Assembly (NCBI GenBank): GCA_021397835.1
Contig: JAJFZO010000256.1
Span: 4,597,009 to 4,661,008, forward strand
Direction: 5' to 3'
Source: Moringa oleifera
Taxonomy: Eukaryota > Streptophyta > Magnoliopsida > Brassicales > Moringaceae
Length of the DNA stretch: 64,000 nucleotides
In this document: piece after piece, positions 35,906 through 64,000 of the stretch
Position numbering within the stretch: position 1 is the first letter of the stretch
How the letters are laid out: each line of letters begins with the position of its first letter
Position numbers and translations under genes: made by a program
The notes under the pieces: model-generated
Databases searched by the model: none
What the model saw: only the letters and a program-made list of their open reading frames with translations
Told to the model about the DNA's origin: nothing

Positions 35906-35996
35906 TTGCATCAGACATTGTTTTATGTCTTTTCTTGTGTATCTTATTTCATCTAATGATATATTACAGAGTACGGGAACGAAACTTGTTTGCACA

Positions 35997-39960: not shown

Positions 39961-40121
39961 TTAACATTCAATGTATTGGTGCAGTTCTAAAATCAAATTA
40001 TGGATATTTTATATTCATGGCATTTTTTTATTTCTCATTCTATTCTTTTTTTTGATAGTTGCCGTTTGCTTCTTGCCCCTGTGTTTTGCATCGCAAATCA
40101 CGCTTCTTTCATCTTTTCTCC

Positions 40122-40892
40122 ATGAAAACGATAGTAGTGGAATGCGAACTCACGCAAATGACTTTGGCATAAAGATTAGGTTCCATTTATGTCTTTAGCA
40201 TTGTTGTCAAGGAGACTCATTGGACATTATTTCAACATCTTGACGAGCACGAGACTTTAATCCAATGGGGCACACTTTCAACTCGATCATTTACCTTTTG
40301 CCTTCTTTTTTTTTTTTTTGTTCTTTTCAATGCTGGGCGGCTTTACAACCACATACTGGATGAGTTCTCCCATATTAATCTTGACCTTGATTTTTGCACT
40401 TTTTTTTACCTCATGCATATATGATATTGTCCTCGAGTTGGTCCCTCCAAGGTCTCGCTCTAGGCAGCGTCGAGGCTTCCGTGTGAAAATTCATGTGAAG
40501 TTTGAAAGGAATCAGTTGTTTAATAAAATAAAACACGGGTCATGCTTTTGCGAATCAATATGATAGGTTCTCTTAACTGATAACGATCAACGATAACGTT
40601 AAGTCTGAAACTTGGAGCAATGTCATGGATGAGGTTCTTTTTGAATCACATGCATTAGACTCTAATGCGTCGGACCCTCGTCGCTGGAAAAATGAAAACA
40701 AAGAAAGCTTTTAAGACATCGACAATAGAAAAAAAAGATGAAGTAAGGGATTGTACTATTTATCTGGTGGAATTATCATATAGAGAGCTAGTCATTGAGA
40801 TACCATGTTCTCATACGTTTCATGAAGCTTGTCTCTTAGGTTAGTTAGTAATTAATAACTCATGCTTTCTTTGTTGTCGTGCACTTAATTAA
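40122..40892 (+). pseudogene. RING-H2 gene, array unit 1 (dead)
   Basis: It aligns along its length with the intact array genes. The frame from the equivalent ATG reaches a TAA after about 16 codons, and there are later breaks. In the RING the second cysteine is Tyr (DCTIYL). The conserved Trp codon after the last zinc ligand of the loop is TAG (LLG-stop-LVINNSC). The end (LCCRALN) is still recognisable. No TATA box like that of the intact copies is found upstream. Confidence 0.88.
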
Positions 40893-42508
40893 TGCATCGA
40901 TATCTAATAGTTAGGATTTTTTATTTTTCAGTTAGATTTATATTTGTTTTTGCATTTTTCATGAAATATATTAACTATTTTATTGTGTACAATATACTTG
41001 TATTTTTTAATGTATTTTTAAATATTTAATTCAAAGAGTTAATGAATAAGATTTAATTACCTCTTTATTATGTTTAATTAAATTTATTATTATAGATATT
41101 AATAATTATTAAATTTTATGTATAATGACAAATATTAACATCAATTTCATGTAAATCTTGGCGTAATCCATTTAAAAAATACTTGAAATGCTGTCACTTA
41201 TGTACATTAAATATATTAAATTAAATTAAAATTCATATAATATATAAATTATATATTTTTTATTATTATAAAAATATATTTATATTTCAATATTAAATAT
41301 GATATCTTAAATTAATTTTTTATATTATTATTAAATTAGTAATTAATAAAATTTATTTTTTTATTATTAAAAATTTTAAGTATTATTTTGTATAATAAGT
41401 TTTTTACAACAATTATTAAATTATATTTTAAATTTTACATTATAAATTACTATTTACTATTAGCCTAAAAACTGAATTATATCAAGAAAAAAAATTTATT
41501 ACTAAGGTTACAAATTAATGTAAAAAATTAATTTATAAATAAATATCATTGAATTCAAAATGTAAAATTAGGTAAATAGAAGTAATAAAAAATATATTAT
41601 TAAAATATAAAATTATAAAATAATTAACATTAACATTAATATTTTTTGAAAATCTATTTTCTATTTCATACTGAAAGTAGAAATTGTCACTAAAATACAT
41701 ATGAATGACATTTTAAATCTTATATTATTAAAATTATGTATGTTAATAATATATATTTTTTATTTCTAGATTATAAGTAATTTAAAATAATTAAAAAAAA
41801 TTTATAGTAATTAAAATATAAAAATATATAATATTTATAATGCAATGCGTTTTGAAATCATGCGATATTAATAATTATTAAAATAAAATTAAATATCAAT
41901 AAAAAAACGTGTTAATATGTTATATTTTCTTAAATAAAGTATGTATTAATGCATTTTGGGTTATGATGTAATGTTACTTATTAATTTTATTTTTTCAAAT
42001 AGTAATCTCCTTATATGTGATATAATTGGGGAACTCATTAATATGAACAAATAAATATATATTAAAATAACCATCACGTTGATTTTGTTTAAATTTAAAA
42101 TTTTAAATAAATTTAATATTATTTTATAATTTACATTTTAAATATAATAACTTTTAAACTAAAATTAACTTTAAAATGCTATTTTGCAATTTACAATTTA
42201 CAATTTTTTACATATGATTTCAATTAACAAGGAATGAATTACACTTTAAGTAAGTTTTTAAATTGAAAAGTTTGAAAAATTGATCTCTCATTTTCACTTG
42301 ATAAAAAGATAATTTGTTTAATTAATGAAAGATATATTGTTTATTTATTAAAAATTATGAATAATTAAAATTAAAATAATATTTATTTTATTTAAAAATG
42401 TTAAATTTTTTTAATAAAAAATATTTTTAAATAAAATATAAAATAGTTAATATTTATAAGATAGTTATCTACTTAGAAAATTGCCCCAAACAAAAATCAA
42501 AATTTTAA

Positions 42509-42560
42509 GTGAGGCTTAGTTGCCCTGAAGGTGGCCTTGTCTTGGTGGTATGATAAAACT
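42509..42560 (+). repeat. GC-richer spacer island, upstream of unit 2
   Basis: This is a diverged copy of a phrase found in each spacer. Shared cores are GGCTTAGTTG/A, AAGGTGGCCTTG and TATGATAAAAC. It stands out in DNA that is otherwise nearly all A/T. Confidence 0.85.
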
Positions 42561-43273
42561 TTAATAAAATTATATACAAAAAAAAGATATTTCTATAAAT
42601 TGAAATTAAATCATTATAAAAAAACCTAATCGATGTAATAAATTAGAAAAATAATCCCTCATTCAAGAATATATATTAAAATTTTAATATTGATAGAATT
42701 TTGATGTATATTATATATTGAAACGATATCAATTTAAAATTTAAAAAACATCAATTTTATCAATTCTATAAAAGTTAAAATAAAGATTAAAATTGAAATC
42801 TTTAAATAAAATTATCATTAAATTAAAACTTAAAAAATATTTATATAGATATAAAAAGATAAAATAACACTTTCTTGGTAAGTTTATCTTTAAAAAAAAA
42901 TAATTTTCATGAAACAATGAATAATTTTTTGAATAATGATTGGTACAAAAAAGTTCCTCAAGATATAATTAATCAAGTAATTTTCAAGAATATATCATAA
43001 AGCTTGATAAAATTTATAATGGATAAACTTTATATTTAATAATCTAAATAGTAATTTCATCTTTCTATTAATCTATTTGGATGGAAAGATCAGCATGGAA
43101 GCAAATCAAACCTTTTTAGGATTTGGAATTCCTATTGTATAAAGCTTGTATTTGCTACTAGATGTAAAAACCCACACCTTTCTATTTCTCATTCTAATCT
43201 CCTCTTTGATAATTGCCCTTTACTTCTTGCTTTTTTATTTTGCATCACAAGTCGCTTCCTCTATCCCTATTCC

Positions 43274-44039
43274 ATAGAGACAAGAAAAGTAAAATTCTAA
43301 CTCACGCAAATAGCCTTAGGATGAATACTAGGTCCCATCTATGTTTTTAGCATTGTTGTCGAGGAGACTTACCGGATGTTTCTCCAACATCTTGACGGCC
43401 ACGAGACTCTAATCTAATGGGACACACTTCCAACTTGACCTTCTACCTTTTGCCTTCCTTTTTCTGTTCTTTTAGAGGTTGGGTGGCCCTACGATCACGT
43501 GCTGAATGAGTTTTTCCACATCAATCTCAATCAAGATTTGTGCATTCTCTTTACCTCATGCAAATACGATATCATCCTCAAGTCGATCCCTCCAAAGTCT
43601 AGCTCTAAGGGTCGTCGGGGCTACCGCATGAAAGTCCATGTGAAGGTTGAAAGAAATCGATTGTTCGATGAAACATATCATGAGGCCATGCTTTTATAAA
43701 TCAAACAATGATAGGTTCTCCTTAGTGATAATGAACAACGATAACATTGAATCTAAAACTTAGAGAGACATCACGAATGAGGTTCTTTCTGAGTCATGTG
43801 CATTAGACTTTGATGTGTCGGACACTAATCGGTTGAAACATGAAAGCAGAGTAAGTTTTCAAGACATCGACAATAGAAAAGAAAATGAAATAACGGATTA
43901 TACTATTTTTCTCGTGGAATTATCATCTGGAGAGCTAATAATTGAAATACCATGTTTTCATTTGTTTCAAGAAGCATGTTTTTTAGGTTAGTTGGTGATT
44001 AACAACTCATGTCCTCTTTGCCGTCGCACACTTTGTTGA
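43274..44039 (+). pseudogene. RING-H2 gene, array unit 2 (dead)
   Basis: The ATG equivalent is ATA (CCATAGAGACAAG), and several stops or shifts break the frame; one piece at 43499-43699 remains open. In the RING, the first two cysteines are Tyr and Phe (DYTIFL) and the second His is Gln (HLFQEAC). The Trp codon is TAG as in unit 1. The end is LCRRTLC. The upstream TATA equivalent has decayed to CTATTTGGAT (43073). Confidence 0.9.
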
Positions 44040-45720
44040 TGCACCGATATATGGTAGCTAGGGTTTGACTTTTTCAATTAGATTTACATTTGTTTTTGCA
44101 TTTTGCATACAATTTATTCACCATTTTCTTATGTATAAATACTTGCATTTTTTTTGGATGTATTTTTAGATAATTAATTTAGAAAGTTAATGAATTAAGA
44201 TTTATTACCTTTTTACTATGTTTAATTAAATTTACTATTATTGATGTTAATAATTATGAAATTATATATATAATGATAAATATTGACATCAATTTCACGT
44301 AAATCATGACATAGTACATTTAAAACATACTTGAAATTGCTTTCACTTATGTATATTAAATATATTAACTTAGATTAAAATTTGTATAATATATAAATTA
44401 TATATTTTTTATTATAAAAATATGTTTTATATTTTAATATTAAATATGATATCTTAAATTAATTTTTATATTATTATTAAATTATTTATTCATAAAATTT
44501 ATTTATTTTATTATTAAAAATTTTAATTATTATTTTGTATAATAAGTTTTTTTTACAAAAAATTATCAAATTATATTTTAAATTGTACATTACAAATTAC
44601 TATTACTATTAGCCTAAAAACTGAATTCTATTAAGAAATAATTTATTACTAAGTAAAAATTTAAAAATATTTTTACTAAAGTTACAAATTAATGTAAAAA
44701 TTAATTTATAAATAAATTTCAATAAATTTAAAAGGTAAAATTATGTAAATAAAAATTATAAAATAATTAATATCAATATTAATATTTTTCAAAAATATAC
44801 TTTCTATTTTATAAGCGAAAGTAGAAATTGTCACTAAACTACATATGAAGACATTTTAAATCTTATATTATTAAAATTATGCATTTAAATAATATGTATT
44901 TTTTATTTTCTAGATTATATGCAATTTAAAATAATAAAAAAATTTAATATAATTAAAATATTAAAATATATAAAACTTACAATGCTATACATCTTGAAAT
45001 ATTATGATATTAATGTTATTAAAATAAAATTAAACATCAATAAAAGAACGTGTTAATATGTTATGCTTTCTTGAATAAAGTATGTATTAATCCATTCTGA
45101 ATTGTGATATAATGTTATTTTTTTATTTTATTTTTAAAAATAATAATTTTCTTATATGCGATACTAATTAATTAACTCACTAATGTGAACAAATGAATAT
45201 ACATTAAATAACCATCATGTTGAAGTCGTTTAATTTTAAAGATTTAAATAAATTTACTATTATTTTATAATAAATATTGTAAATATATATTTTTAAACTA
45301 ATCTAATTTTAAAATTTTAAATAAATTTAATATTATTTTGAAATATATATTTTAAATATAATAATTTTTTAAACTAATATTAACTTTGGAATGATTCTTT
45401 TACAATTTAAAATTTTACATAAGATTTCAATTAACAAGGGATGAACTACACTTTAAGTAAATTTTTAAATCGAAAAGTTTGAAAATTTGATCTCTCATTT
45501 GAATAAAATTTTCATGTGATAAAAACATAATTTTTTAATTTATGAAAGATATATGTTTTATTTATTAATAATTAAAAATAGTAAATTATTTATTTTATTT
45601 TAAAAATGTTAAATACTATTTGTAATAAAAAATGTTTCTAAATAAAATTATAAAAATAATTAATACTTATAAAATAATTATCTACTTAGAAAATTGTCGG
45701 AAACAAAAATAAAAATTTTA

Positions 45721-45773
45721 AGTGGGGCTTAGTTACCTGTAAGGTGGCCTTGTCTTGTCTGTATGATAAAACT
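45721..45773 (+). repeat. GC-richer spacer island, upstream of unit 3
   Basis: Cores GTGGGGCTTAGTTAC, AAGGTGGCCTTG and TATGATAAAAC are present, closer to the young copies than the island before unit 2. Confidence 0.88.
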
Positions 45774-46400
45774 TCAATAAAATTGTATCCAAAAAAATTA
45801 TATTTTTATAAATTGAAATTAAATCATTAGAAAAATAAACCTAATAGACGATATCTTAATCATAAATAAGTCACCAAAAAATAATTAATAAATATTTAAA
45901 ATAAATAAAAATAATAAAATAAAAAATAATTAACCATATAAATTAGAAAAACAATCCCTCATTCAAGAATATATATCAAAATTTTAATATTGATATAATT
46001 TTGATGTATAATACATTTTGAAACTATATCGTTTCAAAATTTAAAAAACATCAATTTCATCAATTTCATAAAAGTTAAAGTAAAGATTAAAATTCAAATT
46101 TTAAATAAAAATATCACTATAATTAAATTTTAAAAATTATTCATACAAATAAAGAAATATAAAATAACACTCTTTGAATAAGTTTATCTTAAAAAAAAAG
46201 AATTTTTATGAAATAATGAATAATTTTCTGAATAATGATTGGTACAACAAAGTCGTCCCTCCTTTTTTTAAATAGCTCCGACTTGTCAAGATGCAATTAA
46301 TCAAGTAATTTTCAAAAATATATCATACAGTTTGATAAAATTTATAATGGATAAACTTTATATTTAATAATATGAACAATAATTCTATTTTTTGGTTAAT

Positions 46401-46410
46401 CTATATGAAT
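46401..46410 (+). promoter_or_regulatory. Weakened TATA box of unit 3
   Basis: CTATATGAAT stands where units 4-8 have CTATATAAAC, 205 bp before the ATG. The A-to-G change should weaken it if the site is a TATA box. Confidence 0.45.
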
Positions 46411-46605
46411 GGAAAGATTAGAATGGAAGCAGATCAAATGCTTTCAGGATTTGGAATTCTGATCGTATAAATCTTGCATTTGTCACTAGAAATAAAGAAA
46501 TCCCACACCTCTCTATTTCTCATTTAGTTTCCTTTTTGATAATCACCCTTTGTTTCCTGCCTTTATGTTTTGCATCACAAATCGTGCTTCCTCTATCTTT
46601 TTTCC

Positions 46606-47370
46606 ATGGAAACAAGAAGAGTGGAATGCGAACTCACGCAAATGGCTTCAGGACCAAGGTTAGGTCCCATATGTGTCTTTAACATTGTCATTGAGGAGAC
46701 TCACCGAACATTGCTCCAACATCTTGATGGCCACGAGACTTTAATTCAACGAGACACACTTCCAACTCGACGCTCTACCTTTCGCCTTCCCCTTTCTATT
46801 CTTGTTGAGGCTGAGTGGCCTTACGACCACGTGCTACATGAGTTCTCCTGCATCAATCTTGACCCAGATTTATGCACTCTCTTCACCTCATGCATATATG
46901 ATACCATTCTCGAGTCGGTTCCTCCAAGGTCTTGCTTTAGGCACTGCCGGGGCTTCCACATGAAAGTCCATGTGAAGGTCGAAAGAAACCGATTATTTGA
47001 TGAAATAGAACATGGGGCCATGCTTTTGCGAATCAACCATGATAGGTTCTCCCGATTGATAACGAACAACGGTAACGTTGAGTCTGAAACTTGGAGCGAT
47101 GTCTTGGATGAGGCTTCTTCTGAGACATATGCGTCAAACTCCAATGCGTCAGAGACTGATCGATTGACAAATGAAAGCAGAGTAAGCTTCCAAGACATCG
47201 ACAGTATAAAAGAAGGTGAAGTAGGGGACTGTATTATTTGTATGGTGGAATTATCATCTGGAGAGCCAGTCGTTGAGATACCATGTTCTCATATGTTTCA
47301 TGAAGCCTGTCTTTTAGGTTGGTTGGTGATTAACAACTCATGTCCTCTTTGCCGTCGCACAGTTGGTTGA
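46606..47370 (+). CDS. RING-H2 finger protein, array unit 3 (intact, diverged)
   Basis: A single exon gives 254 residues from the first true ATG (TTCCATGGAAAC). The frame is open for 12 more codons upstream but without an ATG. RING-H2 proteins usually act as E3 ubiquitin ligases. The C-terminal RING is complete: C-x2-C (DCIICMVELS), then C-x-H-x2-H-x2-C (CSHMFHEAC) and CPLC, ending RRTVG. The N-terminal 200 residues resemble only the other array members; motifs include THRTLLQHLDGHE, LFTSCIYDTILESVPPRS and RNRLFDEIEHGAMLLRI. No signal peptide or membrane segment is seen. It differs from units 4-7 at many positions throughout, while those four are nearly identical to each other. Confidence 0.85.
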   Translation: METRRVECELTQMASGPRLGPICVFNIVIEETHRTLLQHLDGHETLIQRDTLPTRRSTFRLPLSILVEAEWPYDHVLHEFSCINLDPDLCTLFTSCIYDTILESVPPRSCFRHCRGFHMKVHVKVERNRLFDEIEHGAMLLRINHDRFSRLITNNGNVESETWSDVLDEASSETYASNSNASETDRLTNESRVSFQDIDSIKEGEVGDCIICMVELSSGEPVVEIPCSHMFHEACLLGWLVINNSCPLCRRTVG

Positions 47371-48560
47371 TGCACTGATATCTGATAGTTAGGGTTTTTT
47401 ATTTTTTCAGCTAGATTTCGTTTTTTTGTGCGTGTCTTTGCAATTTATTCACCATTTTATTATGTACAAATAATTGCATTTTTTTGCATGTATTTTTAGA
47501 TAATTAATTCAAAGAGTTGATGAATAAGATTTAATTAAATTTATCATTAATTTTAAGTATTATTTTGTATAATAAGTTTTTGACAACAAATTAATGAATT
47601 ATATTTTAAATTTTACATTATAAATTACTATTACTATTAGCCTAAAAACTGAATTATATAAAATAATTTATGACTAAGTAAAATTTAAAAGTACTTTTAT
47701 TAATGTTACAAATTAATGTAAAAATTAATTTATAAATAAATTTCAATAAATTTAAAATACACAATTATGTAAATCAAAACTATAAATATTGATATATTAT
47801 TAAAATATAAAATTATAAAATAATCAATATTATTATTATTACTTAAAAATATATACTTTCTATTTTATAACCAAAAATAGAAATTGTCATTAAAATACAT
47901 ACGAATGACATTTTAAATCATATCTTATTAAAATTGTCCATGCAAATAATATGTGTTTTTTATTTTTAGAAGTAATTCATGATAATTGAAATATTAAAAT
48001 ATACAATACTTATAATGCAATACGCCTTGAAATAATATGATATTAATATTATTAAAATATTAGTAACGTCAATAAAAGAACGTGTTAATATGCTATGCTT
48101 TCTTACATAAATTATGTATTAATGCATTCTAAGTTGTGACATAATGTTATTTGTTGAATTTATTTTTTAAAATAATAATCTCCTTATGTTAAAGCCGTCT
48201 GATTTTAAAAATTCAAATAAATTTAATATTATTTTGACATATGTATTTTAAAATTAAATTTTTTTAAAACTAATCTAATATAAAATTTTAGTAAATTTGA
48301 TATTAATTCATAATATATATTTTAAATATAAGAATTTTTTAGATTAATATTAACTTTGAAATGACTCTTTTACAATTTATAATTTTTTACATATGATTTC
48401 AATTAACCAGGGATGAACTACACTTTAAGTGAACTTTTAAATTCAAAAGTTTGAAAAATTGATCTCTCATTTGAATAGAATTTTCAAGTGATAAAAATGT
48501 AATTTTTTAATGTATGAAAGATATTTTTTATTTATTAAAAATTTAAAATAGTTTAAATAA

Positions 48561-48914
48561 GTAGATGTTAAAGAATTAATTAGATTTTAAATAATCAACT
48601 ATGTGTTAGTTAGATGTTCAGAAAAAATATAATTAGATGCCACTTAGTTAGTTATATATTAATTTATTAATTGGTTAGTAACTAACTAATTTGAGTTTAT
48701 AGTAAGGTATCAGTTATATAATTAATTAAATAATAAATTAAATGTTTCTTAGTTAATTAGAAAGGAGTTAGACGTCAATTAGATATTAAAAGAATGTTAA
48801 TTAGATAAATAATTAATTAAGTGGATGTTAAGTAATTAAGTAGATGTTAAATAATTAATTAGATTTTTACAAATTAGATTAATTAATTAATTAATTAGTA
48901 GCTAATTTATGAAG
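48561..48914. repeat. TTAGATGTTAA-rich block in the spacer after unit 3
   Basis: Many variants of TTAGATGTTAA and TTAATTAATTAG are packed into about 350 bp. The block recurs in each later spacer but not in the spacers after units 1 and 2, so it was gained between those stages. Confidence 0.85.
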
Positions 48915-49054
48915 AATCTCTTACTTATTTTTTTTTAAATGTTAAATATTATTTTTAAAATATAAATTGTATTTAAATAAAAGTATAAAATAATTAATAT
49001 TTATAAAACAGTTAACTACTTAGAAAATTGTCATAAACTAAAATGAAAATTGAA

Positions 49055-49106
49055 AGCGGGGCTTAGTTACAGTTAAGGTGGCCTTGCCCTGGTGCTATGA
49101 TAAAAC
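49055..49106 (+). repeat. GC-richer spacer island, upstream of unit 4
   Basis: AGCGGGGCTTAGTTACAG, AAGGTGGCCTTGCCCTGG and CTATGATAAAAC lie about 0.89 kb before the unit 4 ATG. This form is identical in the later spacers. Confidence 0.9.
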
Positions 49107-49734
49107 TTTGATAAAATTATATCCAAAGAAAATTATATTTCTATAAATTGAAATTAAATCATTATAAAAAGAAAAAAAAAACCTAGTCGATGATATGTTA
49201 ATCATAAACCAATCACTAAAAAATATATACATTTAAAAAATAGAAATAATAAAATAAAAATAATCAACCTAATATATTAAAAAAATAATCCCTCACTCAA
49301 AAATATATGTATTAAAATTTTAATATTGATTGAATTTTGATGTATATTATATATTGAAACAATATCAATTCAAAATTTAAATAACATCAATTTTATCAAT
49401 TTTATAAAAGTAAAAGTCAAGATTTAAATTCAAATGTTTAAATAAAGGTATCGTTAAATTAAAATTTACAAATTATTTATGCAAATTTAGAAAAATAAAA
49501 TAACACTCTCTCTATAAGTTAATCTAAAAGAGAAGAATTTTAATGAAATGACGTACAATTTTCTGAAAAATGACTGGTACAACAAAGTATCCCTCCTTTT
49601 TTTTTTTAAATAGCTTCAACTTGTAAAATTATTAATCAAGTAACATTCAAAAATATATGTTATAGTTTGAAAAAATTTATAGTGGATAAACTTTATGTTT
49701 AATAATTTGAATAGTAATTCTATTTTTTGTTAAT

Positions 49735-49744
49735 CTATATAAAC
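49735..49744 (+). promoter_or_regulatory. TATA box of unit 4
   Basis: CTATATAAAC is 206 bp upstream of the ATG, the same distance as in units 5-7. The leader would be about 170 bp long. Confidence 0.65.
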
Positions 49745-49940
49745 GAAAAGATCATAATGAAAGCAGATCAAATGCATTTAAGATTTGGATTTCCAATCGC
49801 ATAAAGCTTGCATTTGTCACTAGATGTAAACAAAACCCACACCTCTCTATTTCTCATTCCAATCTCTTTTGTAATAATCGTCATTTGCTTCCTGCCTCTG
49901 TGTTTTGCATCAGAAATCACACTTCCTTTATCTTTCCTCC

Positions 49941-50705
49941 ATGAAAACAAGAAGAGTGGAATGCGAACTTATGCAAATGGCCTCTGGACGAAGATTAAGT
50001 CCCATGTGCGTCTTCATCATTATCGTCAAGGAGACTCACCGGACGTTGTTCCAACATCTTGACGGCCACAAGACTATAATCCAATGGGACAAACTTCCAA
50101 CTCGACGCTCTATCTTTCGCCTTCCGCTTTCAGTTCTTCTCGAGGCTGGGCGACCCTATGACCACGTGTTGAATGAGTTCTTCTGCATCAATCTTGACCA
50201 AGATTTATGCACTCTCTTCACCTCATGCGTATATGATACTGTCCATGAGTCGGTCCCTCCAAGGTCTCGCTTCAGGCGTCGTCGGGGCTTCCGTATGAAA
50301 TTTCATGTGAAGGTCAAAAGGAGCCGATTGTTCGACGAAATAGAACATGGGGCCATGCTTTTGCGAATCGACCATGATAGGCTCTCCCAATTGATAACGA
50401 ACAGTGATAACGTTGAGTCTGAAACTTGGAATGACGTTATGGATGAAGTCCCTTCTGGGTCACATGCATCAAACTCCGATGCATTGGACATTGATCGATC
50501 GACGAATGGAAGTACAGCAAGCTTTCAGGACATCGACAGTAGAAAAGAAGATGAAGTAGGGGATTGTAGTATTTGTCTGGTGGAATTATCATCTGGAGGG
50601 CCAGTCGTTAAGATACCGTGTTCTCACATGTTTCACGAAGCTTGTCTTTTAGGTTGGTTGGTGATTAACAACTCATGTCCTCTTTGCCGCCGCGCAGTTG
50701 CTTGA
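49941..50705 (+). CDS. RING-H2 finger protein, array unit 4 (intact)
   Basis: A single exon of 254 residues begins MKTRRVEC, where the other intact copies have METRRVEC. A candidate start 36 bp upstream is a TTG, so it is not used here. The RING-H2 ligands are Cys209, Cys212, Cys227, His229, His232, Cys235, Cys246 and Cys249 (spacing C2C-14-C1H2H2C-10-C2C), ending CRRAVA. Residues 1-200 contain a basic centre (PPRSRFRRRRGFRMKFHVKV) and an acidic Ser-rich linker before the RING. Differences from its neighbours include KRSRLFDE and DRLSQL. It is probably a soluble E3 ligase; the target is unknown. Confidence 0.87.
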   Translation: MKTRRVECELMQMASGRRLSPMCVFIIIVKETHRTLFQHLDGHKTIIQWDKLPTRRSIFRLPLSVLLEAGRPYDHVLNEFFCINLDQDLCTLFTSCVYDTVHESVPPRSRFRRRRGFRMKFHVKVKRSRLFDEIEHGAMLLRIDHDRLSQLITNSDNVESETWNDVMDEVPSGSHASNSDALDIDRSTNGSTASFQDIDSRKEDEVGDCSICLVELSSGGPVVKIPCSHMFHEACLLGWLVINNSCPLCRRAVA

Positions 50706-52458: not shown

Positions 52459-52598
52459 GATCTCTTACTTATTTTTTTTAAAATGTTAAATATTATTTTT
52501 AAAATATAAATTGTGTTTAAATAAAAGTATAAAATAATTAATATTTATAAAACAGTTAACTACTTAGAAAATTGTCATAAACTAAAATGAAAATTGAA

Positions 52599-52650
52599 AG
52601 CGGGGCTTAGTTACAGTTAAGGTGGCCTTGCCCTGGTGCTATGATAAAAC
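52599..52650 (+). repeat. GC-richer spacer island, upstream of unit 5
   Basis: Same wording as the island before unit 4. Confidence 0.9.
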
Positions 52651-53268
52651 TTTGATAAAATTATATCCAAAGAAAATTATATTTCTATAAATTGAAATTA
52701 AATCATTATAAAAAGAAAAAAAAAACCTAGTCGATGACATGTTAATCATAAACCAATCACTAAAAAATATATACATTTAAAAAATAGAAATAATAAAATA
52801 AAAATAATCGACCTAATATATTAGAAAAATAATCCCTCACTCAAAAATATATGTATTAAAATTTTAATATTGATTGAATTTTGATGTATATTATATATTG
52901 AAACAATATCGATTCAAAATTTAAATAACATCAATTTTATAAAAGTAAAAGTCAAGATTTAAATTCAAATGTTTAAATAAAAGTATCGTTAAATTAAAAT
53001 TTACAAATTATTTATACAAATTTAGAAAAATAAAATAACACTCTCTCTATAAGTTAATCTAAAAGAGAAGAATTTTAATGAAATGACGTACAATTTTCTG
53101 AAAAATGACTGGTACAACAAAGTTTCCCTCTTTTTTTTTAAATAGCTTCAAATTGTAAAATTATTAATCAAGTAACATTCAAAAATATATCTTATAGTTT
53201 GAAAAAATTTATAGTGGATAAACTTTATGTTTAATAATTTGAATAGTAATTCTATTTTTTTTGTTAAT

Positions 53269-53278
53269 CTATATAAAC
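53269..53278 (+). promoter_or_regulatory. TATA box of unit 5
   Basis: CTATATAAAC, 206 bp before the ATG. Confidence 0.65.
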
Positions 53279-53474
53279 GAAAAGATCATAATGAAAGCAG
53301 ATCAAATGCATTTAAGATTTGGATTTCCAATCGCATAAAGCTTGCATTTGTCACTAGATGTAAACAAAACCCACACCTCTCTATTTCTCATTCCAATCTC
53401 TTTTGTAATAATCGTCATTTGCTTCCTGCCTCTGTGTTTTGCATCAGAAATCACGCTTCCTTTATCTTTCCTCC

Positions 53475-54281
53475 ATGGAAACAAGAAGAGTGGAATGCGA
53501 ACTCATGCAAATGGCCTCGGGACGAAGATTAAGTCCCATGTGCGTCTTCATCATTATCGTCAAGGAGACTCACCGGACGTTGTTCCAACATCTTGACGGC
53601 CACAAGACTATAATCCAACGGGATAAACTTCCAACTCGACGCTCTATCTTTCGCCTTCCGCTTTCAGTTCTTCTCGAGGCTGGGCGACCCTATGACCACG
53701 TGTTGAATGAGTTCTTCTGCATCAATCTTGACCAAGATTTATGCACTCTCTTCACCTCATGCGTATATGATACTGTCCATGAGTCGATCCCTCCAAGGTC
53801 TCGCTTCAGGCGTCATCGGGGCTTCCGTATGAAATTTCATGTGAAGGTCAAAAGGAACCGATTGTTCGACGAAATAGAACATGGGGCCATGCTTTTGCGA
53901 ATCGACCATGATCGGTTCTCCCAATTGATAACGAACAGTGATAACGTTGAGTCTGAAACTTGGAATGACGTTATGGATGAAGTCCCTTCTGGGTCACATG
54001 CATCAAACTCCGATGCATTGGACATTGATCGATCGATGAATGGAAGTACAGCAAGCTTTCAGGACATCGACAGTAGAAAAGAAGATGAAGTAGGGGATTG
54101 TAGTATTTGTCTGGTGGAATTATCATCTGGAGGGCCAGTCGTTAAGATACCGTGTTCTCACATGTTTCACGAAGCTTGTCTTTTAGGTTGGTTGGTGATT
54201 AACAACTCATGTCCTCTTTGCCGCTGCAGTTGCTTGATGTACCGATATCTGATAGTTAGGGCTTTCTACATTTTCGGTTAG
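53475..54281 (+). CDS. RING-H2 finger protein, array unit 5 (frame-shifted C-terminus)
   Basis: The single exon gives 268 residues, against 254 in units 4 and 6. All eight RING ligands are kept. Two bases are missing just after the final CPLC (TGCCGCTGCAG where the others have TGCCGCCGCGCAG). The tail therefore changes from RRAVA to RCSCLMYRYLIVRAFYIFG, which is hydrophobic. Other differences include ESIPPRS, RRHRGF and RSMNGST. The protein may still be a working RING ligase with an altered end, or an early pseudogene. Confidence 0.82.
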   Translation: METRRVECELMQMASGRRLSPMCVFIIIVKETHRTLFQHLDGHKTIIQRDKLPTRRSIFRLPLSVLLEAGRPYDHVLNEFFCINLDQDLCTLFTSCVYDTVHESIPPRSRFRRHRGFRMKFHVKVKRNRLFDEIEHGAMLLRIDHDRFSQLITNSDNVESETWNDVMDEVPSGSHASNSDALDIDRSMNGSTASFQDIDSRKEDEVGDCSICLVELSSGGPVVKIPCSHMFHEACLLGWLVINNSCPLCRCSCLMYRYLIVRAFYIFG

Positions 54282-55640
54282 ATTTACATTTGTTTTTGCA
54301 TTTGCTTGTAATTTATTCAACATTTTATTATGCACAAATTCTTGTATTTTTTGGTGTGTTTTTAGATAATTAATTTAGAGAGTTGATGAATAAGATTTAA
54401 TTAAATTTATGATTAATTAATATTAATAATTATTAAGTTATATATATAATAACAAATATTAACAATAATTTCACGTAAATCTAAACGTAGTCTCTTTAAA
54501 AATTCTCGAAATGCTTTCACTTACCTATATTAAATATATTAAATTAGACAAAAATTCGTATAATATAAAAAATAATTTCAAGTATATATATTTTTATTAT
54601 TAAAAATATATTTTATATTTTAATATTAAATACGATATCTTAAATTAATTTTCATATTATTATTAAATTAATAATTTATAAATTTTACATTATAAATTAC
54701 TATTACTATTAGCCTAAAAACTGAATTATATTAAGAAAATAATTTATGACTAAGTAAAATTTAAAAGTACTTTTATTAATGTTACAAATTAATGTAAAAA
54801 TTAATTTATAAATAAATTTCAATAAATTTAAAATACACAATTATGTAAATAAAAACTATAAATTTTGATATATTATTAAAATATAAAATTATAAAATAAT
54901 TAATAATATTGTTAATACTTAAAAATATATACTTTCTATTTTATAACCAGAAATATAGAAATTGTCATTAAAATACATACGAATGACATTTTAAATCTTA
55001 CCTTATTAAAATTGTGCGTGTAAATAATGTATATTTTTTAATTTTTTAGAAGTAATTCGTGATAATTGAAATATTAAAATATACAATATTTATAATGCAA
55101 TATGCCTTGAAATAATATGATATTAATATTATTAAAGTAATATTAACGTCAACAAAAGAACGTGTTAATATGCTATGCTTTCTTGCATAAATTATGTATT
55201 AATGCATTCTAAGTTGTGATATAATGTTATTTGTTGAATTCATTTTTTTAAATAATAATTTCCTTATGTTGAAGTAGTCTAATTTTAAAAATTCAAATAA
55301 ATTTAATATTATTTTGTCATATATATTTTAAATATAAGAATTTCTTAAACTAATTTAACATAAAATTTTTAGTAAATTTGATATTATTTCATAATATATA
55401 TTTTAAATATAAGAATTTTTACACTAATATTAAATTTGAAATGACTCTTTTACAATTTACAATTTTTTACATATGATCTCAATTAACCAGGGATGAACTA
55501 CACTTTAAGTGAACTTTTAAATTGAAAAGTTTGAAAAATTGATCTCTCATTTGAATAGAATTTTCAAGTAATAAAAATGCAATTTTTTAATTTATGAAAG
55601 ATATTTTTTATTTATTAAAAATTTAAAAGAATTTAAATAA

Positions 55641-55990
55641 GTAGATGTTAAAGAATTAATTAGATTTCAAATAATTAATTATATGTTAGTTAGATGTTTA
55701 GAAAAAATATAACTAGATGTTTCTTAGTTAGTTACGCGTTAATTTATTAATTGATTAGCAACTAACTAATTTGAGTTTATAATAAGGTATCAACTAGATA
55801 ATTAATTAATTAATGAATTAAATGTTTCTTAGTTAATTAGAAGGGAGTTAGACGTCAATTAGATATTAAGAGAATGTTAATTAGATAAATAATTAATTAA
55901 GTGAATGTTAAGTAATTAAGTAAATGTTAAATAATTAATTAGATTTTTAGAAATTAGATTAATTAATTAATTAGTAGCTAATTTATGAAG
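55641..55990. repeat. TTAGATGTTAA-rich block in the spacer after unit 5
   Basis: Near-identical to the block after unit 4. Confidence 0.85.
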
Positions 55991-56130
55991 GATCTCTTAC
56001 TTATTTTTTTTAAAATGTTAAATATTATTTTTAAAATATAAATTGTGTTTAAATAAAAGTATAAAATAATTAATATTTATAAAACAGTTAACTACTTAGA
56101 AAATTGTCATAAACTAAAATGAAAATTGAA

Positions 56131-56182
56131 AGCGGGGCTTAGTTACAGTTAAGGTGGCCTTGCCCTGGTGCTATGATAAAAC
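56131..56182 (+). repeat. GC-richer spacer island, upstream of unit 6
   Basis: Same wording as the island before unit 4. Confidence 0.9.
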
Positions 56183-56803
56183 TTTGATAAAATTATATCC
56201 AAAGAAAATTATATTTCTATAAATTGAAATTAAATCATTATAAAAAGAAAAAAAAAAAAACCTAGTCGATGACATGTTAATCATAAACCAATCACTAAAA
56301 AATATATACATTTAAAAAATAAAAATAATAAAATAAAAATAATCGACCTAATATATTAGAAAAATAATCCCTCACTCAAAAATATATGTATTAAAATTTT
56401 AATATTGATTGAATTTTGATGTATATTATATATTGAAACAATATCGATTCAAAATTTAAATAACATCAATTTTATAAAAGTAAAAGTCAAGATTTAAATT
56501 CAAATGTTTAAATAAAAGTATCGTTAAATTAAAATTTACAAATTATTTATACAAATTTAGAAAAATAAAATAACACTCTCTCTATAAGTTAATCTAAAAG
56601 AGAAGAATTTTAATGAAATGACGTACAATTTTCTGAAAAATGACTGGTACAACAAAGTTTCCCTCTTTTTTTTTTAAATAGCTTCAAATTGTAAAATTAT
56701 TAATCAAGTAACATTCAAAAATATATCTTATAGTTTGAAAAAATTTATAGTGGATAAAGTTTATGTTTAATAATTTGAATAGTAATTCTATTTTTTTGTT
56801 AAT

Positions 56804-56813
56804 CTATATAAAC
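56804..56813 (+). promoter_or_regulatory. TATA box of unit 6
   Basis: CTATATAAAC, 206 bp before the ATG. Confidence 0.65.
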
Positions 56814-57009
56814 GAAAAGATCATAATGAAAGCAGATCAAATGCATTTAAGATTTGGATTTCCAATCGCATAAAGCTTGCATTTGTCACTAGATGTAAAC
56901 AAAACCCACACCTCTCTATTTCTCATTCCAATCTCTTTTGTAATAATCGTCATTTGCTTCCTGCCTCTGTGTTTTGCATCAGAAATCACGCTTCCTTTAT
57001 CTTTCCTCC

Positions 57010-57774
57010 ATGGAAACAAGAAGAGTGGAATGCGAACTCATGCAAATGGCCTCGGGACGAAGATTAAGTCCCATGTGCGTCTTCATCATTATCGTCAAGG
57101 AGACTCACCGGACGTTGTTCCAACATCTTGACGGCCACAAGACTATAATCCAACGGGATAAACTTCCAACTCGACGCTCTATCTTTCGCCTTCCGCTTTC
57201 AGTTCTTCTCGAGGCTGGGCGACCCTATGACCACGTGTTGAATGAGTTCTTCTGCATCAATCTTGACCAAGATTTACGCACTCTCTTCACCTCATGCGTA
57301 TATGATACTGTCCATGAGTCGGTCCCTCCAAGGTCTCGCTTCAGGCGTCGTCGGGGCTTCCGTATGAAATTTCATGGGAAGGTCAAAAGGAACCGATTGT
57401 TCGACGAAATAGAACATGGGGCCATGCTTTTGCGAATCGACCATGATAGGTTCTCCCAATTGATAACGAACAGTGATAACGTTGAGTCTGAAACTTGGAA
57501 TGACGTTATGGATGAAGTCCCTTCTGGGTCACATGCATCAAACTCCGATGCATTGGACATTGATCGATCGACGAATGGAAGTACAGCAAGCTTTCAGGAC
57601 ATCGACAGTAGAAAAGAAGATGAAGTAGGGGATTGTAGTATTTGTCTGGTGGAATTATCATCTGGAGGGCCAGTCGTTAAGATACCGTGTTCTCACATGT
57701 TTCACGAAGCTTGTCTTTTAGGTTGGTTGGTGATTAACAACTCATGTCCTCTTTGCCGCCGCGCAGTTGCTTGA
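57010..57774 (+). CDS. RING-H2 finger protein, array unit 6 (intact)
   Basis: A single exon of 254 residues with all RING-H2 ligands and the standard CRRAVA end. Private change: MKFHGKVKR (Val to Gly). It shares LRTLFTSC (Cys to Arg) with unit 7, which suggests that these two are the closest pair. Confidence 0.87.
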   Translation: METRRVECELMQMASGRRLSPMCVFIIIVKETHRTLFQHLDGHKTIIQRDKLPTRRSIFRLPLSVLLEAGRPYDHVLNEFFCINLDQDLRTLFTSCVYDTVHESVPPRSRFRRRRGFRMKFHGKVKRNRLFDEIEHGAMLLRIDHDRFSQLITNSDNVESETWNDVMDEVPSGSHASNSDALDIDRSTNGSTASFQDIDSRKEDEVGDCSICLVELSSGGPVVKIPCSHMFHEACLLGWLVINNSCPLCRRAVA

Positions 57775-59177
57775 TGTACCGATATCTGATAGTTAGGGCT
57801 TTCTACATTTTCGGTTAGATTTACATTTGTTTTTGCATTTGCTTGTAATTTATTCAACATTTTATTATGCACAAATTCTTGTATTTTTTGGTGTGTTTTT
57901 AGATAATTAATTTAGAGAGTTGATGAATAAGATTTAATTAAATTTATTATTAATTAATATTAATAATTATTAAGTTATATATATAATAACAAATATTAAC
58001 AATAATTTCACGTAAATCTAAACGTAGTCTCTTTAAAAATTCTCGAAATGCTTTCACTTACCTATATTAAATATATTAAATTAGACAAAAATTCGTATAA
58101 TATAAAAAATAATTTCAAGTATATATATTTTTATTATTAAAAATATATTTTATATTTTAATATTAAGTACGATATCTTAAATTAATTTTCATATTATTAT
58201 TAAATTAATAATTTATAAATTTTACATTATAAATTACTATTACTATTAGCCTAAAAACTGAATTATATTAAGAAAATAATTTATGACTAAGTAAAATTTA
58301 AAAGTACTTTTATTAATGTTACAAATTAATGTAAAAATTAATTTATAAATAAATTTCAATAAATTTAAAATACACAATTATGTAAATAAAAACTATAAAT
58401 TTTGATATATTATTAAAATATAAAATTATAAAATAATTAATAATATTGTTAATACTTAAAAATATATACTTTCTATTTTATAACCAGAAATATAGAAATT
58501 GTCATTAAAATACATACGAATGACATTTTAAATCTTACCTTATTAAAATTGTGCGTGTAAATAATGTATATTTTTTAATTTTTTAGAAGTAATTCGTGAT
58601 AATTGAAATATTAAAATATACAATATTTATAATGCAATATGCCTTGAAATAATATGATATTAATATTATTAAAGTAATATTAACGTCAACAAAAGAACGT
58701 GTTAATATGCTATGCTTTCTTGCATAAATTATGTATTAATGCATTCTAAGTTGTGATATAATGTTATTTGTTGAATTCATTTTTTTAAATAATAATTTCC
58801 TTATGTTGAAGTAGTCTAATTTTAAAAATTCAAATAAATTTAATATTATTTTGTCATATATATTTTAAATATAAGAATTTCTTAAACTAATTTAACATAA
58901 AATTTTTAGTAAATTTGATATTATTTCATAATATATATTTTAAATATAAGAATTTTTACACTAATATTAAATTTGAAATGACTCTTTTACAATTTACAAT
59001 TTTTTACATATGATCTCAATTAACCAGGGATGAACTACACTTTAAGTGAACTTTTAAATTGAAAAGTTTGAAAAATTGATCTCTCATTTGAATAGAATTT
59101 TCAAGTAATAAAAATGCAATTTTTTAATTTATGAAAGATATTTTTTATTTATTAAAAATTTAAAAGAATTTAAATAA

Positions 59178-59527
59178 GTAGATGTTAAAGAATTAATTAG
59201 ATTTCAAATAATTAATTATATGTTAGTTAGATGTTTAGAAAAAATATAACTAGATGTTTCTTAGTTAGTTACGCGTTAATTTATTAATTGATTAGCAACT
59301 AACTAATTTGAGTTTATAATAAGGTATCAACTAGATAATTAATTAATTAATGAATTAAATGTTTCTTAGTTAATTAGAAGGGAGTTAGACGTCAATTAGA
59401 TATTAAGAGAATGTTAATTAGATAAATAATTAATTAAGTGAATGTTAAGTAATTAAGTAAATGTTAAATAATTAATTAGATTTTTAGAAATTAGATTAAT
59501 TAATTAATTAGTAGCTAATTTATGAAG
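59178..59527. repeat. TTAGATGTTAA-rich block in the spacer after unit 6
   Basis: Near-identical to the block after unit 4. Confidence 0.85.
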
Positions 59528-59667
59528 GATCTCTTACTTATTTTTTTTAAAATGTTAAATATTATTTTTAAAATATAAATTGTGTTTAAATAAAAGTATA
59601 AAATAATTAATATTTATAAAACAGTTAACTACTTAGAAAATTGTCATAAACTAAAATGAAAATTGAA

Positions 59668-59719
59668 AGCGGGGCTTAGTTACAGTTAAGGTGGCCTTGC
59701 CCTGGTGCTATGATAAAAC
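59668..59719 (+). repeat. GC-richer spacer island, upstream of unit 7
   Basis: Same wording as the island before unit 4. Confidence 0.9.
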
Positions 59720-60341
59720 TTTGATAAAATTATATCCAAAGAAAATTATATTTCTATAAATTGAAATTAAATCATTATAAAAAGAAAAAAAAAAAAACCT
59801 AGTCGATGACATGTTAATCATAAACCAATCACTAAAAAATATATACATTTAAAAAATAAAAATAATAAAATAAAAATAATCGACCTAATATATTAGAAAA
59901 ATAATCCCTCACTCAAAAATATATGTATTAAAATTTTAATATTGATTGAATTTTGATGTATATTATATATTGAAACAATATCAATTCAAAATTTAAATAA
60001 CATCAATTTTATAAAAGTAAAAGTCAAGATTTAAATTCAAATGTTTAAATAAAGGTATCGTTAAATTAAAATTTACAAATTATTTATACAAATTTAGAAA
60101 AATAAAATAACACTCTCTCTATAAGTTAATCTAAAAGAAAAGAATTTTAATGAAATGACGTACAATTTTCTGAAAAATGACTGGTACAACAAAGTTTCCC
60201 TCCTTTTTTTTTTAAATAGCTTCAAATTGTAAAATTATTAATCAAGTAACATTCAAAAATATATGTTATAGTTTGAAAAAATTTATAGTGGATAAAGTTT
60301 ATGTTTAATAATTTGAATAGTAATTCTATTTTTTTGTTAAT

Positions 60342-60351
60342 CTATATAAAC
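60342..60351 (+). promoter_or_regulatory. TATA box of unit 7
   Basis: CTATATAAAC, 206 bp before the ATG. Confidence 0.65.
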
Positions 60352-60547
60352 GAAAAGATCATAATGAAAGCAGATCAAATGCATTTAAGATTTGGATTTC
60401 CAATCGCATAAAGCTTGCATTTGTCACTAGATGTAAACAAAACCCACACCTCTCTATTTCTCATTCCAATCTCTTTTGTAATAATCGTCATTTGCTTCCT
60501 GCCTCTGTGTTTTGCATCAGAAATCACGCTTCCTTTATCTTTCCTCC

Positions 60548-61309
60548 ATGGAAACAAGAAGAGTGGAATGCGAACTCATGCAAATGGCCTCGGGACGAAG
60601 ATTAAGTCCCATGTGCGTCTTCATCATTATCGTCAAGGAGACTCACCGGACGTTGTTCCAACATCTTGACGGCCACAAGACTATAATCCAACGGGATAAA
60701 CTTCCAACTCGACGCTCTATCTTTCGCCTTCCGCTTTCAGTTCTTCTCGAGGCTGGGCGACCCTATGACCACGTGTTGAATGAGTTCTTCTGCATCAATC
60801 TTGACCAAGATTTACGCACTCTCTTCACCTCATGCGTATATGATACTGTCCATGAGTCGGTCCCTCCAAGGTCTCGCTTCAGGCGTCGTCGGAGCTTCCG
60901 TATGAAATTTCATGTTAAGGTCAAAAGGAACCGATTGTTCGACGAAATAGAACATGGGGCCATGCTTTTGCGAATCGACCATGATAGGTTCTCCCAATTG
61001 ATAACGAACAGTGATAACGTTGAGTCTGAAACTTGGAATGACGTTATGGATGAAGTCCCTTCTGGGTCACATGCATCAAACTCCGATGCATTGGACATTG
61101 ATCGATCGACGAATGGAAGTACAGCAAGCTTTCAGGACATCGACAGTAGAAAAGAAGATGAAGTAGGGGATTGTAGTATTTGTCTGGTGGAATTATCATC
61201 TGGAGGGCCAGTCGTTAAGATACCGTGTTCTCACATGTTTCACGAAGCTTGTCTTTTAGGTTGGTTGGTGATTAACAACTCATGTCCTCTTTGCCGCGCA
61301 GTTGCTTGA
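60548..61309 (+). CDS. RING-H2 finger protein, array unit 7 (one-codon deletion at the end)
   Basis: A single exon of 253 residues. Three bases are missing after CPLC (TGCCGCGCAG), so the end is CRAVA instead of CRRAVA; the RING is otherwise complete. Private change: RRRSFRMKF (Gly to Ser). LRTLFTSC is shared with unit 6. It is likely functional. Confidence 0.87.
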   Translation: METRRVECELMQMASGRRLSPMCVFIIIVKETHRTLFQHLDGHKTIIQRDKLPTRRSIFRLPLSVLLEAGRPYDHVLNEFFCINLDQDLRTLFTSCVYDTVHESVPPRSRFRRRRSFRMKFHVKVKRNRLFDEIEHGAMLLRIDHDRFSQLITNSDNVESETWNDVMDEVPSGSHASNSDALDIDRSTNGSTASFQDIDSRKEDEVGDCSICLVELSSGGPVVKIPCSHMFHEACLLGWLVINNSCPLCRAVA

Positions 61310-62712
61310 TGTACCGATATCTGATAGTTAGGGCTTTCTACATTTTCGGTTAGATTTACATTTGTTTTTGCATTTGCTTGTAATTTATTCAACATTTTAT
61401 TATGCACAAATTCTTGTATTTTTTGGTGTGTTTTTAGATAATTAATTTAGAGAGTTGATGAATAAGATTTAATTAAATTTATGATTAATTAATATTAATA
61501 ATTATTAAGTTATATATATAATAACAAATATTAACAATAATTTCACGTAAATCTAAACGTAGTCTCTTTAAAAATTCTCGAAATGCTTTCACTTACCTAT
61601 ATTAAATATATTAAATTAGACAAAAATTCGTATAATATAAAAAATAATTTCAAGTATATATATTTTTATTATTAAAAATATATTTTATATTTTAATATTA
61701 AGTACGATATCTTAAATTAATTTTCATATTATTATTAAATTAATAATTTATAAATTTTACATTATAAATTACTATTACTATTAGCCTAAAAACTGAATTA
61801 TATTAAGAAAATAATTTATGACTAAGTAAAATTTAAAAGTACTTTTATTAATGTTACAAGTTAATGTAAAAATTAATTTATAAATAAATTTCAATAAATT
61901 TAAAATACACAATTATGTAAATAAAAACTATAAATTTTGATATATTATTAAAATATAAAATTATAAAATAATTAATAATATTGTTAATACTTAAAAATAT
62001 ATACTTTCTATTTTATAACCAGAAATATAGAAATTGTCATTAAAATACATACGAATGACATTTTAAATCTTACCTTATTAAAATTGTGCGTGTAAATAAT
62101 GTATATTTTTTAATTTTTTAGAAGTAATTCGTGATAATTGAAATATTAAAATATACAATATTTATAATGCAATATGCCTTGAAATAATATGATATTAATA
62201 TTATTAAAGTAATAGTAACGTCAACAAAAGAACGTGTTAATATGCTATGCTTTCTTGCATAAATTATGTATTAATGCATTCTAAGTTGTGATATAATGTT
62301 ATTTGTTGAATTCATTTTTTTAAATAATAATTTCCTTATGTTGAAGTAGTCTAATTTTAAAAATTCAAATAAATTTAATATTATTTTGTCATATATATTT
62401 TAAATATAAGAATTTCTTAAACTAATTTAACATAAAATTTTTAGTAAATTTGATATTATTTCATAATATATATTTTAAATATAAGAATTTTTACACTAAT
62501 ATTAAATTTGAAATGACTCTTTTACAATTTACAATTTTTTACATATGATCTCAATTAATCAGGGATGAACTACACTTTAAGTGAACTTTTAAATTGAAAA
62601 GTTTGAAAAATTGATCTCTCATTTGAATAGAATTTTCAAGTAATAAAAATGCAATTTTTTAATTTATGAAAGATATTTTTTATTTATTAAAAATTTAAAA
62701 GAATTTAAATAA

Positions 62713-63061
62713 GTAGATGTTAAAGAATTAATTAGATTTCAAATAATTAATTATATGTTAGTTAGATGTTTACAAAAATATAACTAGATGTTTCTTAGTT
62801 AGTTACGCGTTAATTTATTAATTGATTAGCAACTAACTAATTTGAGTTTATAATAAGGTATCAACTAGATAATTAATTAATTAATGAATTAAATGTTTCT
62901 TAGTTAATTAGAAGGGAGTTAGACGTCAATTAGATATTAAGAGAATGTTAATTAAATAAATAATTAATTAAGTGAATGTTAAGTAATTAAGTAAATGTTA
63001 AATAATTAATTAGATTTTTAGAAATTAGATTAATTAATTAATTAGTAGCTAATTTATGAAG
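62713..63061. repeat. TTAGATGTTAA-rich block in the spacer after unit 7
   Basis: Near-identical to the block after unit 4, with small private changes (for example TTTACAAAAATATAAC). Confidence 0.85.
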
Positions 63062-63201
63062 GATCTCTTACTTATTTTTTTTAAAATGTTAAATATTATT
63101 TTTAAAATATAAATTGTGTTTAAATAAAAGTATAAAATAATTAATATTTATAAAACAGTTAACTACTTAGAAAATTGTCATAAACTAAAATGAAAATTGA
63201 A

Positions 63202-63253
63202 AGCGGGGCTTAGTTACAGTTAAGGTGGCCTTGCCCTGGTGCTATGATAAAAC
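63202..63253 (+). repeat. GC-richer spacer island, upstream of unit 8
   Basis: Same wording as the island before unit 4. Confidence 0.9.
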
Positions 63254-63863
63254 TTTGATAAAATTATATCCAAAGAAAATTATATTTCTATAAATTGAAA
63301 TTAAATCATTATAAAAAGAAAAAAAAAAAAACCTAGTCGATGACATGTTAATCATAAACCAATCACTAAAAAATATATACATTTAAAAAATAAAAATAAT
63401 CGACCTAATATATTAGAAAAATAATCCCTCACTCAAAAATATATGTATTAAAATTTTAATATTGATTGAATTTTGATGTATATTATATATTGAAACAATA
63501 TCAATTCAAAATTTAAATAACATCAATTTTATAAAAGTAAAAGTCAAGATTTAAATTCAAATGTTTAAATAAAGGTATCGTTAAATTAAAATTTACAAAT
63601 TATTTATACAAATTTAGAAAAATAAAATAACACTCTCTCTATAAGTTAATCTAAAAGAAAAGAATTTTAATGAAATGACGTACAATTTTCTGAAAAATGA
63701 CTGGTACAACAAAGTTTCCCTCCTTTTTTTTTTTTAAATAGCTTCAAATTTTAAAATTATTAATCAAGTAACATTCAAAAATATATCTTATAGTTTGAAA
63801 AAATTTATAGTGGATAAAGTTTATGTTTAATAATTTTAATAGTAATTCTATTTTTTTGTTAAT

Positions 63864-64000
63864 CTATATAAACGAAAAGATCATAATGAAAGCAGATCAA
63901 ATGCATTTAAGATTTGGATTTCCAATCGCATAAAGCTTGCATTTGTCACTAGATGTAAACAAAACCCACACCTCTCTATTTCTCATTCCAATCTCTTTTG
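63864..64000 (+). promoter_or_regulatory. Promoter and leader of array unit 8 (gene itself outside the window)
   Basis: CTATATAAAC at 63864-63873 and the leader up to CATTCCAATCTCTTTTG match units 4-7 base for base. By the fixed 206-bp spacing the ATG would fall near 64070, past the edge. Confidence 0.85.

Follow-up and report, generated by a model that had tools for sequence, protein, structure and literature searches.

Organization of the array

The stretch of DNA analyzed here (the window, 64,000 nucleotides in length) comes from Moringa oleifera (assembly GCA_021397835.1, contig JAJFZO010000256.1, positions 4,597,009 to 4,661,008 of the forward strand) and is flowering-plant DNA, nuclear by its gene content. 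From about position 40,025 to its right end, the window is occupied by a head-to-tail array of seven intronless RING-H2 genes, as determined by self-blastn and a repeat search. Its paralogues share one orientation, some are alive and others dead, and some are recent duplicates, the features of a birth-and-death tandem array; we consider it very probably to be one, formed by a small intronless gene that codes for an apparently soluble E3 ubiquitin ligase of the RING-H2 type in a Brassicales plant. All units share one orientation in self-blastn and are spaced 3.15–3.54 kilobases (kb) from start to start, the starts being taken from the self-blastn ends (~40,025, 43,179, 46,514, 49,848, 53,382, 56,917, and 60,455). 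When positions 1–40,000 were compared with 38,001–64,000 (blastn, E 1e-5), the sole match was the overlap with itself; no match to the array was found in positions 1–38,000.

An earlier note on this DNA had counted eight head-to-tail units. The tandem head-to-tail arrangement is real, yet the window holds only seven of the genes: unit 8 is represented by its first ~24 bases (63,977–64,000, forward strand, position worked out from the self-comparison), which stop 5′ of its start codon. The window ends inside the array, whose right end lies beyond it.

The first two genes are dead, as the note had proposed. Unit 1 (40,025–43,178; all units and genes of the array are on the forward strand) forms the left edge of the array, was delimited by self-blastn and repeats, and lacks the 5′ flank that the other units have. 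Its gene, U1 (40,122–40,892), is a RING-H2 pseudogene with four in-frame stops (codons 17, 150, 196, and 239) and frameshifting indels, and has lost the second RING cysteine. In unit 2 (43,179–46,513), the pseudogene U2 (43,274–44,039) has ATA in place of the start ATG, seven in-frame stops (codons 9, 17, 48, 55, 142, 163, and 239) and one frameshift, and zinc ligands are lost. The remaining five genes are intact, each with a single open frame of 253–268 residues. Unit 3 (46,514–49,847) carries U3 (46,606–47,370, 254 residues). Units 4 (49,848–53,381) and 6 (56,917–60,454) carry U4 (49,941–50,705) and U6 (57,010–57,774), likewise of 254 residues. In unit 5 (53,382–56,916), a 2-base pair (bp) deletion just 3′ of the codon for the last zinc ligand alters and lengthens the C-terminus of U5 (53,475–54,281, 268 residues); U7 (60,548–61,309, 253 residues) has lost one codon (3 bp) at that place, and its unit (60,455–63,976) has its own 14-bp spacer deletion. 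The zinc ligands of U5 and U7 are untouched.

Two further observations were made on the units. Homology of U1 to the rest of the array starts just ~97 bp 5′ of its start codon (40,025–40,122), without the shared 5′ flank; if the duplicated unit began ~97 bp before the gene, the promoters of U2–U8 would each come from the 3′ end of the unit before. In addition, the spacer behind each recent gene contains an inverted repeat, imperfect and ~370 bp long (51,055–51,425 and the same place in U5–U7) that matches its own reverse complement at 68% (self-blastn, low-complexity filter off). Part of the corresponding stretch is missing from U3 near 47,574–47,593. The repeat may be a hairpin element or a chance product of AT-rich DNA.

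The encoded proteins

In all five intact copies the RING-H2 domain lies at residues 209–249, with identical spacing and all eight zinc ligands (C-C-C-H-H-C-C-C), and Pfam zf-RING_2 (PF13639) was recognized in each at E values of 1.1e-14 to 4.6e-15 (54.9–56.1 bits, cut-off 27.3). The nearest solved relatives of this domain are the RINGs of RLIM, Arkadia, and RNF165. Trp239 is kept in U3–U7, while U1 and U2 have a stop codon there. GC content is 0.375–0.386 in the dead and 0.448–0.467 in the live genes. From their domain, the genes are inferred to encode putative RING E3 ubiquitin ligases, and the protein is apparently soluble.

Divergence and age of the copies

Results of the pairwise comparisons showed two tiers of copies. 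U3 is intact and diverged, as noted earlier, differing from U4–U7 at 14.4–14.8% of positions in the gene. Among U4–U7 the differences amount to 0.4–1.6% in the gene, with a synonymous divergence (dS) of 0.006–0.024, and to 0.11–0.49% in the spacer. The near-identity that had been claimed for units 4–8 therefore holds for U4–U7, the gene of unit 8 lying outside the window, and it supports very recent amplification at the right side. Arabidopsis changes at 7e-9 per site and year; at this rate, the spacer divergence of U4–U7 would correspond to roughly 0.08–0.35 million years, although the real rate may differ.

The old copies behave otherwise. Their dS values were 0.395 (0.279–0.547) for U1–U2, 0.413 for U1–U3, 0.361 for U2–U3, 0.452 for U1–U6, 0.414 for U2–U6, and 0.381 (0.268–0.514) for U3–U6. 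Across all old pairs dS thus falls within 0.36–0.46 with overlapping bootstrap intervals, and the values are equal within error. We therefore conclude that U1, U2, U3, and the ancestor of U4–U7 separated about simultaneously. In agreement with this, the third-position tree was star-like, with an internal branch between U1/U2 and the rest of ~0 (support 52), and third-position sites split 5:5:5 among the three groupings.

These data bear on the left-to-right age gradient that the earlier note had read from the array, i.e., steady rightward growth in which every unit is younger than its left neighbor. The order of the copies invites such a reading: dead copies lie on the left, intact ones and the recent tier on the right, and both codon positions 1+2 and the spacers join U3 with U4–U7. 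Yet dS is flat where a gradient should show and the third-position internal branch has practically no length. U1 and U2 appear older because dead genes drift unconstrained; their total divergence is inflated by weaker constraint (ratio of nonsynonymous to synonymous divergence, dN/dS, of 0.44–0.56 in pairs with U1 and U2) and by loss of GC. Within the recent tier, private ungapped substitutions number 10 in U4, 5 in U5, 3 in U6, and 9 in U7, without a trend, and the right end of the array lies beyond the window. A gradient is thus very unlikely. The array consists of two tiers plus a mosaic unit 3, with U4–U7 as a separate recent burst.

The mosaic unit 3 and exchange between copies

Along unit 3, divergence from U6 falls in steps. 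It is 15.1% (136/901) over 46,530–47,430, which covers the old gene, 5.6–8.0% over 47,593–48,782, and 1.1–2.2% over 48,783–49,864; between 47,430 and 47,593 the alignment is interrupted by a ~200-base gap in U3. The best single break in the U3–U6 spacer was located at 48,936, where differences drop from 89/1339 to 10/918, and none of 500 permutations matched it. Applied to the U1–U2 spacer, the test yielded a log-likelihood gain of 4.9, versus 23.9 for U3–U6, and was equaled in 33 of 500 permutations. The stretch ~47,593–48,936 is thus of intermediate divergence, and from ~48,936 unit 3 is near-identical to the recent units; the recent block therefore starts within the U3 spacer.

The sharp step near 48,936, with another near 47,590, is what could be expected if ongoing gene conversion among old copies, and not new duplication, had produced the recent homogenization, as the earlier note had considered. 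Exchange is suggested for the U3 spacer alone, and unequal crossover there fits equally well. Among U4–U7 no conversion was seen: all five ungapped sites at which one pair of copies differs from the other pair support U6+U7, with none in conflict, and the likeness spans whole 3.5-kb units, not patches. Trees gave U6+U7 low support, 67 for the coding sequence and 56 for the distal spacer; for the proximal spacer the tree takes another form, with supports of 27 and 63. Substitution counts, taken over the coding part and spacer without the initial ~76 bases of every unit, were 15, 13, and 12 for adjacent pairs of U4–U7, 18 and 19 at a distance of two units, and 23 at a distance of three. That neighbors differ least is what stepwise, repeated unequal crossing-over would leave, and there is no sign of later exchange. 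We consider conversion as the source of the homogeneity unlikely.

Since spacers that are 99.5–99.9% identical are where assemblers err, and the window ends within the array, the recent units might also be one or two copies laid out repeatedly by the assembly. Such an artefact is highly improbable given the private substitutions in each of U4–U7, the private indels in U4, U5, and U7, the five ungapped sites shared by U6 and U7, and the single orientation of all units.

Selection and base composition

The intact old pair U3–U6 is under purifying selection (dN/dS 0.28, 0.19–0.42). For the recent copies, pairwise dN/dS ranged from 0.43 to 1.46, with very wide intervals in the three of six pairs that were bootstrapped. 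These values, together with a raw excess of U4–U7 differences in coding over non-coding DNA (odds ratio 3.67, p 0.0004), would suit an expansion in which copies diversify under positive selection in the manner of a pathogen arms race; a link to defense, reproduction, or genetic conflict had indeed been put forward for this locus. The excess was examined by base composition. All 32 variable ungapped U4–U7 columns (49,865–64,000) involve G or C, and none of 2643 columns with A/T only is variable. Counted per G/C column, the coding excess shrinks to an odds ratio of 1.45 (p 0.36), and base composition therefore suffices to explain it. Of 15 U4–U7 substitutions in ungapped codons (three gapped codons excluded), all within codons 2–188, 10 change the amino acid and five are silent, about what weak constraint or drift would give for the site numbers. 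Positive selection in the recent copies was rejected because the coding excess is lost in the count per G/C column. We saw no sign of an arms race, the recent copies by themselves having low power, and with the old intact pair under constraint, an expansion driven by conflict or defense is very unlikely; the proposed link thus finds no support.

The N-terminal part

When 5.8 billion proteins were searched by word seeding, no relatives of the N-terminal ~200 residues were found. The single-protein homologue search gave two matches among 267 candidates at E 0.001, and the profile search 13 among 1914 at E 1; by the coverage listed, the matches aligned with 20–45% of the query, and all 13 carry the RING model. 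The search depends on shared five-residue words, and a fast-evolving known plant family could escape it. As a control, the neighboring RMD5 gene matched 1049 of 4120 candidates (120 listed); since this gene is much better conserved, the control shows that plants are covered but does not show that the search would detect a fast-evolving family. Pfam searches of residues 1–200 at E up to 10, which covered U3 and U6, returned one chance match for U3 (spidroin, E 0.2) and none for U6. Structure modeling gave a mean predicted local distance difference test score (pLDDT) of 34.5 from a single sequence and of 43.7 from nine sequences, the latter with 36 residues at 70–90. Models of such low confidence yield meaningless matches in fold searches.

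For residues 1–200 alone, dN/dS of U3–U6 was 0.26 (0.16–0.40), so the N-terminal part is constrained as a real protein would be. It is possible, if rather doubtful, that it represents a substrate-recognition domain that arose, or diverged past recognition, in one Brassicales lineage, and that the genes form a RING-H2 subfamily confined to that lineage, which purifying selection has maintained over dS ~0.4 and which is now being re-amplified. This constrained part, for which no relatives were detected, is the single unexplained point of the array.

Comparison with known families

The array is of the same kind as the tandem arrays of Brassicaceae RING and ATL genes. A study on Brassicaceae describes RING E3 genes that are likewise tandem, often intronless, and in many cases under relaxed selection; in Arabidopsis lyrata, 58.1% of RING genes are predicted tandem duplicates and 35.4% are intronless, and a significant part of the young members change neutrally (PMC6651606). 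The array described here differs in its lineage, in an N-terminal part without detected relatives, and in the amplification of whole 3.5-kb units.

ATL genes are mostly intronless. They are RING-H2 genes that likewise occur in tandem arrays, which have been attributed to birth and death; these arrays are species-specific and mostly hold two or three genes each, with nine in one listed array (PMC3161093), and a passage on ATL arrays elsewhere gives more than 20 genes (PMC3738576). Patterns described as frequent in ATL proteins are R-x-LP, placed one residue ahead of the third ligand, and [I/V]D-x-WL, which follows the sixth (PMC3161093). Neither R-x-LP-x-C nor [I/V]D-x-WL was found in the five intact copies, which have KIPC or EIPC, and LLGWL. 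None of the five showed an ATL-type N-terminal transmembrane helix on Kyte-Doolittle hydropathy, no dedicated helix predictor being run; the top 19-residue mean was 1.21–1.26 and started at residue 209 or 235. The GLD motif, which lies between helix and RING and often starts with G-L-D, was looked for as the triplet, with variants not sought, and the triplet is absent from all five. ATL membership was rejected on the helix, the triplet, and the patterns.

Proteins of the BTL / Rabring7 / BCA2 group, as presented in PMC3738576, are likewise RING-H2 proteins without an N-terminal hydrophobic helix, but they have an N-terminal C2/C2 zinc finger, and tandem BTLs are scarce. No C-x2-C occurs outside the RING in the five intact copies, and BTL membership was rejected for want of this finger. 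F-box proteins are subunits of SCF, whereas the array protein would be a single-chain RING. The F-box superfamily nevertheless resembles the array in the lineage-specific turnover of ubiquitin-ligase genes, discussed under genomic drift in excerpts of PMC3030570.

In the parts of the literature covered by our search, no description of the locus was found. The main texts of the Moringa and Bretschneidera genome papers do not contain “ubiquitin,” and “ring” occurs in them 0 and 1 times, respectively.

Genomic neighborhood

Other genes lie to the left of the array. The RMD5 homologue used as a control (27,486–28,643) has CTLH plus RING, is a single open frame of 385 residues, and is unrelated to the array; among the 120 of its 1049 matches that were listed, the best was 86% identical (Carica papaya), the next 85%, and the others at most 80%, which puts the plant within Brassicales, close to papaya though probably in a different family. 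It is followed by a DUF7026 gene (29.8–30.3 kb), a PMR5/PC-esterase gene in two pieces (32.1–34.5 kb), and an APO RNA-binding gene, also in two pieces (36.9–38.1 kb). Just before the APO pieces, a 149-bp unit is repeated 1.8 times with 89% matches (35,788–36,058). No structured RNAs or tRNAs were detected in the whole window (Rfam at gathering thresholds; ARAGORN).

Discussion

The history that we propose begins with old duplications that would have produced U1, U2, U3, and the ancestor of U4–U7 at about one time. U1 and U2 would then have lost their function and decayed toward A+T, while U3 and the ancestor of U4–U7 were presumably kept under purifying selection. A single gene was probably re-amplified long afterwards to give U4–U8, and the distal spacer of U3 would have joined the recent block. 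The breakpoint near 48,936 is seen in the sequence itself; these changes would probably have come about through unequal crossing-over of AT-rich spacers, not conversion. Judging from RING-H2 proteins generally, the C-terminal RING-H2 would be expected to bind an E2 and the N-terminal ~200 residues a substrate.

Several observations weigh against this account. On codon positions 1+2, the tree joins U1 with U2 (branch 0.049, support 96), and 22 sites pair them, compared with 6 and 3 in favor of the alternative groupings; U1 and U2 could therefore descend from one common ancestor whose decay had already set in, instead of having decayed independently. No usable N-terminal model was obtained (residues 1–205 are all below pLDDT 50 in the nine-sequence model), residues 201–254 gave a U3–U6 dN/dS of 0.37 (0.10–1.66), the RING part being too short to say much, and young RING genes have a higher synonymous divergence (Ks) than a model of recent tandem origin predicts, according to excerpts of PMC6651606.

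Of the 27 sites in all that pair U1 with U2, 22 lie at codon positions 1 and 2, and 22 combine G/C in U3 and U6 with A/T in the two pseudogenes, a pattern at least partly in keeping with parallel decay. The stops shared at codons 17 and 239 were rejected as proof of a joint death, as chance overlap suffices: when four and seven stops are drawn from 16 one-step sites, at least two are shared in 61% of random draws (the codon-9 stop of U2 lies outside these sites).

A birth-and-death array, as favored here, represents ordinary gene duplication and loss, not a new system. It teaches that a dead-to-alive order of copies can mimic an age gradient though the splits were about simultaneous, and that coding divergence in excess of spacer divergence can arise from base composition alone.

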